A DNA stretch of 64,000 nt from a virus: positions 1 through 64,000 of the IMG/VR virus record IMGVR_UViG_3300032213_002833; one strand, 5' to 3'. The notes below the pieces were generated by a model. The model was not told the origin of the DNA. It searched no databases and saw only the letters and a list, made by a program, of their open reading frames with translations. Below are positions 35,890-48,925 of the stretch, one piece after another. The stretch's first letter is position 1. The number at the start of each line of letters is the position of its first letter. The position numbers and the translations under genes were made by a program.

Positions 35890-35892
35890 TTG

Positions 35893-35975
35893 TAGTCAGG
35901 GCAGGACTCGAACCTGCACTACACCTGGTATACACCATATTAAACTAGGAGCGTGTTTCATTACACCACCTGACT
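35893..35975 (-). tRNA. tRNA-like element 2, no standard anticodon arm
   Basis: A perfect 7-bp acceptor (AGTCAGG / CCTGACT), a T arm GCAGG TTCGAGT CCTGC and a D stem GTGT / ACAC with loop AATGAA lacking the usual GG. The central ~37 nt do not form a regular 5-bp anticodon stem with a 7-nt loop; a CCTA/TA-T-GG pairing needs a bulge, and a TGGT-GTAT-ACCA hairpin could be a variable arm. 83 nt overall, class II size. It may be a divergent or decayed tRNA or a tRNA-like RNA. Confidence 0.5.
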
Positions 35976-47580: not shown

Positions 47581-47584
47581 TTTG

Positions 47585-47657
47585 AGCCGATGGAGGGATT
47601 CGAACCCCCGACCTACTGATTACAAATCAGTTGCTCTACCAGCTGAGCTACATCGGC
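47585..47657 (-). tRNA. tRNA-Thr (anticodon TGT)
   Basis: A 73-nt cloverleaf: acceptor GCCGATG / CATCGGC, anticodon stem ACTGA / TCAGT with loop TTTGTAA (anticodon TGT, Thr ACA), T arm CGGGG TTCGAAT CCCTC. Its first base directly follows the U tract of the hairpin upstream. Confidence 0.95.
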
Positions 47658-47704
47658 AAAAAACCCCTAGTAGTATTCCAAGCGTCCTTGGCACTTGCTA
47701 GGGG
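47658..47704 (-). terminator. Terminator-like hairpin abutting tRNA-Thr
   Basis: On the coding strand CCCCTAG / CTAGGGG, with an inner CCAAG / CTTGG hairpin, followed by TTTTTT. The T run ends exactly where tRNA-Thr begins, with no room for a promoter. It is either a leaky terminator of the RNA upstream or a processing element. Confidence 0.65.
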
Positions 47705-48040
47705 GTGATACTTGGTTATAGGGTTGTCTATGAAGGCACCGTCGCGCACCCATAAAGCAGATCCCATTTCCCAATATCGAGAAAGACCATCTGAGTGAGC
47801 AGATCTAACGGTATGCCCGATGGTACTTGGCCTACGTCTATCTCAACGCAGGGGGGAGTGTTACATTGATTTGGGTTCAATGTAAAAAACCTTTGTAGAC
47901 TCCAAACCATAAGGTAAAGAGCAACTCTAGAACCGGAGAACTAGAGGATCCCAATGTTTCCATTGGTGGGGTAAAAGACCTACCCTGGTACGCTCGATCG
48001 GGGGCACCCCAGTCCAGAAGCGTGGTAGGTACTGTCAAAC
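47705..48040 (-). ncRNA. Putative structured noncoding RNA
   Basis: About 340 nt without a convincing gene, visibly richer in G+C than its surroundings. Perfect hairpins: TTACATTGA / TCAATGTAA (47861-47885), CTCTAG / CTAGAG (47925-47946), CCAATG-GAAA-CATTGG (47951-47966), GGGG-TGC-CCCC (48001-48010), ATCTG / CAGAT (47789-47804), and an outer ACCTACC / GGTAGGT pair (47978-47984 with 48024-48030) enclosing ACGCT / AGCGT. A CTGG / CCAG pair could make a pseudoknot. An AATATTTATA element lies just upstream and a U-tract hairpin just downstream, giving plausible ends. Two frames of 60 and 102 codons cross it but ignore this structure. Confidence 0.6.
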
Positions 48041-48393
48041 TATAAATATTGTTTAAGTAATTCTCCTTTATAGTGTTTTTCATATGTTCCTCGAGGATCA
48101 TCATAATATATTGCCATATACTTTGCCAATTTATCAAATGATTCAAATACAAATGTTTGACAACCAACACTAACAATAAACCCATTATGTACGTGTTTAA
48201 TGGTTACATCATACTGGGCTAATTTATCATTCATGTCTACAACAGGCATTGGTCTGCAATCTTCTTCTCTCTCATATGCTTCAAGTGCTGGTGTTTCATC
48301 TTGAGCAGATTCCTCCAGGTTGATAATGTCTGCAATTGCGTCTTGAAATGCTCTTCCTAGATCTGCTACTTGTTCTTGTTGTCTTCTGTTCAT
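48040..48393 (-). CDS. Hypothetical protein (117 aa)
   Basis: The start is placed at 48393 (MNRRQQEQVADLGRAFQDAI), after AAGTTAT; a longer frame would begin in tRNA-like element 3. A helical N-terminus, an acidic middle and a beta-rich end (VTIKHVHNGFIVSVGCQTFV). The last codons coincide with the AATATTTATA element of the RNA downstream. No family recognised. Confidence 0.6.
   Translation of the reverse strand: MNRRQQEQVADLGRAFQDAIADIINLEESAQDETPALEAYEREEDCRPMPVVDMNDKLAQYDVTIKHVHNGFIVSVGCQTFVFESFDKLAKYMAIYYDDPRGTYEKHYKGELLKQYL
48041..48050 (-). promoter_or_regulatory. AATATTTATA element before the structured RNA
   Basis: Plus-strand TATAAATATT overlapping the last codons of the 117-residue gene. 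It could start the structured RNA. Confidence 0.35.
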
Positions 48394-48472
48394 ATAACTT
48401 ATTTTATTTAAAAAAGGACTTGTAAAACCCATCTCCATTGAGGTAAGGAAACTCCATCCAATGTTTTTTGCG

Positions 48473-48596
48473 TAGTCAGGACAGGATTCGAACCTGTAAT
48501 GGTTGTTAGTGGCTTTGTTGACGGGCGGTACAGCTTCCACACTGCATCTCCCAATACCAATTCTAACTCAGCGTCTACCAATTACGCCACCTGACT
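48473..48596 (-). tRNA. tRNA-like element 3 with extended middle
   Basis: A 7-bp acceptor (AGTCAGG / CCTGACT), a canonical D arm (GCGT / ACGC with AATTGGTAG) and T arm (ACAGG TTCGAAT CCTGT), so both ends look like a real tRNA-Leu-type gene. The part between D arm and T arm is ~73 nt, versus ~30-35 in a class II tRNA. A GTTAG / CTAAC pair would close a 54-nt loop in place of the anticodon loop. It contains a 12-nt match to the 16S rRNA decoding region. It may be an interrupted tRNA, a fusion or a tRNA-like RNA. Confidence 0.55.
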
Positions 48597-48695
48597 ATAA
48601 AAACACACTCTTTAGCCTTCTACTCCCAGCCCCGAGAAATTGTATATAGCTTAGCCCGCCTCACCGCTGTGTGGGAACTGAAGTTTATGTGTTTG
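48597..48695 (-). other. RNA-like segment closed by a 7-bp stem
   Basis: AAACACA / TGTGTTT (48601-48607 with 48688-48694) encloses ~80 nt of G+C-richer sequence between tRNA-like elements 4 and 3. It contains no reading frame of note. Possibly another small stable RNA of the cluster. Confidence 0.35.
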
Positions 48696-48760
48696 TAACC
48701 AGGAAGGGACTCGAACCCTTTGCAGCATTAGGACGTTTCCCCGTACGCCAAACCCTGGTT
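48696..48760 (-). tRNA. tRNA-like element 4, short
   Basis: A 7-bp acceptor (AACCAGG / CCTGGTT) and a full T arm (AAGGG TTCGAGT CCCTT). Only 33 nt lie between them, enough for one arm (GCGT / ACGT with ACGGGGAA), so a normal D arm and anticodon arm cannot both exist. 65 nt overall. Probably a truncated or derived tRNA. A 49-codon frame runs through it but is taken as chance. Confidence 0.45.
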
Positions 48761-48925
48761 GGGGGGTGGAGATTTGTAAACCAACGCATGATCACCCTTA
48801 CGTCTTGTTTCTTTTGTCTTCGGCACTCCACCATTGTAAGTACAACTTAACTTGCGCCGCCGTTCACGAATCTTCCGAAATTCTAACGGCTGTTACTGTT
48901 AACTATCGGAATCAAGTAACTGCTG
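48761..48925 (-). other. RNA-like segment between tRNA-Glu and element 4
   Basis: Two structured parts: GGTGGAG / CTCCACC (48765-48771 with 48826-48832) closes a 68-nt segment, and further up CCGTT / AACGG with an inner GAAT / ATTC, plus GTTACT / AGTAAC. No gene is supportable. It may be part of a processed multi-RNA transcript starting before tRNA-Glu. Confidence 0.35.

Follow-up and report, generated by a model that had tools for sequence, protein, structure and literature searches.

Genomic setting of the locus

The viral sequence investigated here (IMG/VR virus record IMGVR_UViG_3300032213_002833) is a metagenomic fragment of 70,527 bases, of which the first 64 kb were analysed and are referred to as the window. 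Every open reading frame of at least 250 aa is carried by the minus strand. Baseplate-wedge-like genes in the window point to a contractile-tailed phage, whose host presumably belongs to the Bacteroidota; an NCBIfam search for host-marker domains returned nothing useful.

A non-coding, G+C-rich stretch separates a 117-aa gene (48040-48393) from a tRNA-Thr gene (47584-47657). It encodes a structured RNA of approximately 375 nt, which runs on the minus strand from about 48033 to 47658, starts with AGUACCUACCACGCU at its 5' end and finishes in a terminator hairpin followed by six U. The product of the 117-aa gene has no significant match in Pfam or PHROGs and matches no toxin family, and the gene is also kept in phages that have no RNA at the corresponding site (L003-L005). 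The features of the locus are as follows; R1 and R2 are covariance models described below.

48040..48393, minus strand: upstream gene, 117 aa, no assigned function (Pfam, PHROGs)
47972..48033, minus strand: domain A, putative abiF-type antitoxin motif 1 (covariation; R1 matches upstream of Abi_2 genes in Bacteroidota)
47951..47966, minus strand: hairpin B, GAAA loop, optional (compensatory changes in homologues; missing from short forms)
47925..47946, minus strand: hairpin C, CUCUAG...CUAGAG, optional (paired in homologues with compensatory changes)
47886..47924, minus strand: module D, CUUUACC...AAAGG, optional (alignment)
47861..47885, minus strand: hairpin E, UUACAUUGA...UCAAUGUAA, optional (alignment)
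47831..47852, minus strand: hairpin F, between A and G (compensatory pairs, columns 208-229; in 20/20 aligned forms)
47782..47827, minus strand: domain G, putative abiF-type antitoxin motif 2 (covariation; R2 matches upstream of Abi_2 genes)
47706..47783, minus strand: domain H (covariation; no credible bacterial counterpart)
47658..47704, minus strand: domain I, intrinsic terminator hairpin and U-run (strong compensatory pairs, columns 360-400)
47584..47657, minus strand: tRNA-Thr(UGU), directly 3' of the RNA terminator (ARAGORN and Rfam)

Conservation and architecture of the RNA

An earlier note on this DNA had proposed a structured RNA at this site. Folding of the single sequence was mildly better than that of shuffled sequences (z of -2.7 on the minus strand and -1.8 on the plus strand, which is mildly unusual); homologues were therefore sought, and the proof of the structure is comparative. 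Starting from a neighbouring protein, we reached six viral contigs; the RNA is retained in two of them, with 91% identity in L002 and 82% in L007. An exact 19-mer from the 5' part retrieved 23 viral stretches, and looser patterns retrieved more, giving about 30 full-length phage homologues. Three pattern matches (L128, L131 and L145), to which the model gave less than 18 bits, were judged to be chance matches in apparently coding sequence and were discarded.

From these homologues, 20 distinct full-length RNAs of 216 to 398 nt were aligned. With the alignment as its sole input, RNAalifold returned a consensus fold of 56 pairs, 22 of them double-compensatory, across A, F, G, H and I. This bears out the proposed structure and carries out the covariance test on related phages that the earlier note had suggested. 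More specifically, 96.5% of the cells in domain A pair, against 21-40% with slid partners, and the pair counts of the named structures (A, G and H) agree with the consensus fold, with slid partners scoring far lower. A coding origin was rejected: no reading frame, the feature named earlier as evidence against an RNA, is conserved among the homologues, and the lengths vary over the whole range given above.

Domains A, F, G and H and terminator I are common to all 20 aligned forms; B, C, D and E, which fill the interval from A to F, can be absent or exchanged. Domain A consists of P1 (ACCUACC/GGUAGGU), P2 (ACGCU/AGCGU), a 3'-side bulge ACCAG and a variable P3, followed by CUUUU. Domain G follows the same plan with a different sequence: P1 (ACCAUC/GAUGGU), P2 (GCA/UGC), a conserved 12-nt loop and a 3'-side bulge. 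In domain H, the covarying stem GAUAUUGG/CCAAGUAUC encloses an invariant GGGAA ... UAUAACC together with a variable inserted helix, and domain I reads CCCCUAG...CUAGGGG-UUUUUU. Module D/E is also found as an independent unit in one viral contig (L011, 456-522), placed between the terminator of the RNA and tRNA-Thr.

Several further details of the earlier description could be assessed. The G+C enrichment in an AT-rich genome is confirmed (about 46% versus about 30%), as is the GAAA tetraloop stem (47951-47966). The U-tract hairpin proposed as a boundary is a real terminator and part of the RNA, but it occupies 47704-47658, just outside the left edge then assigned to the element. The promoter-like element found no support: the 5' end has no sigma-70-like site next to it, and conservation does not extend into the sequence upstream. 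The possible pseudoknot, which can be drawn in domain A as UCUGG/CCAG, was rejected because the pairing is not conserved in four homologues (L020, L034, L035 and L036).

The suspected association with tRNA clusters is borne out by a same-strand tRNA less than 1 kb away in 29 of the 30 full-length homologues, several of which lie about 10 nt after a tRNA. GOLLD and ROOL are likewise large structured RNAs close to phage tRNAs. The RNA described here differs from them in size and shows no sequence or model match to either, in line with the earlier failure to recognise them; the suggested Rfam search, run at the gathering threshold and at E up to 10, returned only tRNAs and chance matches.

Domain A resembles RNAs upstream of Abi_2 genes

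AbiD/AbiF toxins are HEPN RNases that are restrained by a small RNA whose gene lies immediately upstream. In Clostridioides difficile, this RNA is RCd22, which has two abiF motifs and neutralises AbiF by direct binding, both in cis and in trans; neutralisation is lost when its stems are broken and kept when pairing is restored (PMC12373285). A passage in a review (PMC12737573) states that single-stranded bulge nucleotides of PbAbiFr inhibit the RNase and lists PDB 8vz6 as PbAbiF with its RNA. For the AbiF proteins of Bacteroidota, anti-phage activity is not itself shown in the open-access literature searched.

The sole bacterial pattern match to the 5' domain was found in a genome of Ekhidna (Bacteroidota), approximately 120 nt upstream of a protein identified as Abi_2 by Pfam (E 8e-55) and as AbiD by PADLOC. 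The Ekhidna protein matches, in addition, the Abi protein in PDB 8vz6. A covariance model built from 18 phage A domains only (R1) was then searched in 395 Bacteroidota genomes at E up to 0.01, which yielded 25 matches in 22 genomes. Eighteen of the 25 lie directly upstream of an Abi_2 (AbiD/AbiF) gene on the same strand, with a chance expectation of about 1e-5 per match; by an independent Pfam profile search, Abi_2 occurs in 43 of the 395 genomes. Three more matches lie at contig ends (G289, G339 and G379). Two weak matches of 28 bits (G049:C30 and G324:C137) appear to fall inside methylase-like coding sequence and were rejected.

At some bacterial places, for instance in G058, the motif occurs without an Abi_2 gene. 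Motifs of abiF type without a downstream Abi_2 were also seen beside type I restriction-modification genes (L036 5411-5463; L049 1494-1549, corresponding to L103 1494-1556). In L056, a single Abi_2 gene is preceded by two copies with equal scores (849-897 and 1429-1477), spaced 580 nt apart.

Between phage and host RNAs, the P1 stems differ by paired changes, with ACCUACC/GGUAGGU in the phage and ACUUGCC/GGCAAGU or ACUCGCC/GGCGAGU in the hosts. Unpaired nucleotides (the ACCAG bulge, ACGCUUC and the CUUUU tail) are for the most part kept while the helices differ, and this combination of kept unpaired nucleotides and drifting helices is the pattern that would be expected of a common protein-binding site. 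Judged by sequence, domain A is homologous to the RNAs found ahead of AbiD/AbiF toxin genes in Bacteroidota.

Domain G as a second motif and the relation to the Rfam abiF family

Prior to the search with domain G, an AbiF-type association was recorded as a prediction. A covariance model of this domain alone (R2) was run against the same 395 genomes, and 8 of its 10 best matches are found directly upstream of Abi_2 genes, as are 12 of the full set of 31 obtained with E up to 0.1. Domain G, by the same kind of comparison, is likewise homologous to RNAs preceding AbiD/AbiF toxin genes in Bacteroidota. With homologues directly upstream of Abi_2 for R1 (18/25) and R2 (12/31), both domains fit the wider AbiF/AbiD-associated antitoxin family. 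A model of domain H (R3), searched likewise in the 395 Bacteroidota genomes, gave only noise-level matches, none of them near Abi_2; the approach therefore does not yield Abi_2 for just any phage RNA.

The Abi_2 loci found with R2 are mostly distinct from the best R1 loci and mostly belong to another AbiF clade. In a tree of 28 AbiF proteins, the owners of A-type and G-type RNAs fall largely into separate clades, with 7 label changes versus 14.7 after shuffling; because some rows of the tree are near-copies, this split is supporting evidence rather than proof. By these comparisons, A and G resemble RNAs of largely different AbiF clades.

The Rfam abiF model (RF03085) finds nothing in 47640-48920, even when E values up to 10 are allowed, and the gathering threshold is not reached. 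Its architecture (P1 - 1 nt - P2 - loop - ~6-nt 3' bulge - P1') is nevertheless that of domain A, which reads CCUACC-A-CGC...GCG-UACCAG-GGUAGG, with covariation, when compared with the RF03085 structure line; domain G is similar. Furthermore, RF03085 matches some further Abi_2 loci, and the RNA in L066 scores 25 bits with R1 and 34 bits with RF03085, so that R1, R2 and RF03085 look like branches of one motif type.

Taken side by side, the phage motifs share with RF03085 and RCd22 the order P1, 1-nt 5' bulge, short P2, loop, 5-6 nt 3'-side bulge and P1', and their bacterial relatives are located just upstream of Abi_2 genes. The tandem arrangement of two motifs is also that of RCd22. In contrast to RF03085 and RCd22, the phage RNA lies below any Rfam threshold and lacks a downstream toxin gene; its motifs resemble RNAs of different clades, and it carries the extra domains F, H and I as well as the optional hairpins.

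Orphan status and single-motif forms in other phages

The Abi_2 profile has no match in 50 viral records, comprising 29 phage records (about 1.6 Mb) and two complete crAss-like genomes, searched at E up to 1, and 19 further viral contigs, searched at E up to 0.01, three of which are false pattern matches and one of which is the same phage as cr7_1. In bacteria the Abi_2 toxin usually follows directly 3' of the RNA, and it never does so in the phages examined. The locus accordingly differs from a complete type III toxin-antitoxin system, which has its cognate toxin gene adjacent. Because the record holding the window is a 70.5 kb fragment and most viral records may be incomplete, the search excludes a distant toxin less than fully. 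As far as sequence can establish it, the phage RNA is an orphan with homology to host antitoxins.

A blast search of the window RNA against cultured phages gave no match. A short homologue gave weak crAss-like matches, which were then confirmed by the R1 model. In two complete genomes of crAss-like Burzaovirus, one orphan motif lies in an intergenic gap that carries no annotation (R1, 42 bits):

NC_055899.1 49878-49924 and NC_055895.1 (L125, L126 2475-2521): crAss-like motif, before a fibre or outer capsid gene

Further single-motif RNAs in phages (L129, L134, L138 and L139) are closely similar to bacterial antitoxins, and single-motif forms in other phages mostly have no tRNA nearby. In lactococcal phage sk1, which part of the literature connects with insensitivity to AbiF, neither Rfam nor R1 detects an abiF motif.

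Proposed role of the phage RNA

With two antitoxin motifs present and no toxin gene, the RNA is probably a decoy that disarms AbiF defence. We consider it likely that it acts as a bivalent antitoxin mimic, in which A and G bind and silence host AbiF RNases as a means of counter-defence. We infer that the RNA is expressed, binds AbiF and neutralises it. It would be transcribed together with the tRNA cluster during infection and then fold, after which A and G would occupy, in trans, the antitoxin site of the host's AbiF HEPN ribonucleases. In this way, the phage RNA would replace or outnumber the cell's own antitoxin; AbiF would consequently stay unreleased and abortive infection would fail. The location in a tRNA array may simply provide co-transcription and processing. 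A role shared with the phage tRNAs against tRNA-cleaving defence is also possible, given the reported cleavage of tRNA anticodons by Cas13a (cited in PMC12373285).

A broader version is put forward more tentatively: A and G would disarm two AbiF clades, while H and the exchangeable hairpins would serve as decoys for further RNA-binding defence toxins, forming a polyvalent array whose modules are swapped between phages on a common scaffold, closed by a terminator and located in the tRNA cluster.

The large extra domains without a bacterial counterpart and the tight tRNA link (29/30 full-length forms) would also suit a motif that the phage took from bacteria and now employs in a structural or regulatory capacity, such as a stable scaffold or an element in tRNA-transcript processing, with no role against AbiF. 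We regard this as unlikely: the unpaired nucleotides shared with host antitoxins are kept while the helices drift, and the single-motif forms elsewhere mostly lack neighbouring tRNAs. A toxin-antitoxin system of AbiF type carried by the phage for superinfection exclusion or addiction, in which this RNA would supply the antitoxin and the toxin would be distant or too diverged for the profile, is very unlikely. Complete AbiF systems on prophages do exist (PMC12373285), but the Abi_2 search described above was negative in all 50 viral records, and the toxin's usual place directly after the RNA is never taken by one in the phages. A decoy for another HEPN RNase such as Cas13, which is thought to descend from AbiF (PMC12373285, PMC12737573), is scarcely credible, as the credible bacterial relatives sit at Abi_2 genes; nor was any likeness to a CRISPR repeat noticed.

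As a bivalent antitoxin mimic, the RNA has a precedent in phage PhiTE, whose pseudo-ToxI mimics the ToxI antitoxin and counters ToxIN (PMC3475682). Both are orphan phage RNAs that resemble a type III antitoxin and are proposed to act against abortive infection. The ToxI pseudoknot repeats, however, target ToxN and are structurally unrelated to the phage RNA, and PhiTE represents selected escape mutants, whereas the present RNA is a conserved family in many wild phages with two apparent specificities. Within the open-access literature searched, a family of conserved phage RNAs directed against AbiF would be new. Members of the family are present in crAss-like phages from the human gut as well as in many environmental phages; the RNA looks bivalent and would put a name to one class of the ornate RNAs found in phage tRNA clusters. 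If the proposal is true, such RNAs would neutralise specific AbiF clades, and domain H could act as bait for a further defence protein.

Further tRNA-like sequences in the window

Additional tRNA-like sequences were observed on the minus strand. ARAGORN reported a tRNA with an odd anticodon (tRNA-???) at 35892-35975. A second tRNA-like sequence near the locus, at 48700-48765, has acceptor and T arms, apparently without a normal anticodon arm, and the GC-rich sequences flanking it (48600-48700 and 48765-48920) also appear structured. The first, at 48473-48596, was missed by ARAGORN and scores 37 bits with the Rfam tRNA model; it contains an insert of approximately 55 nt, apparently inside the anticodon loop. 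A long insert is likewise present in its L033 homologue, where the anticodon stem shows a compensatory change.
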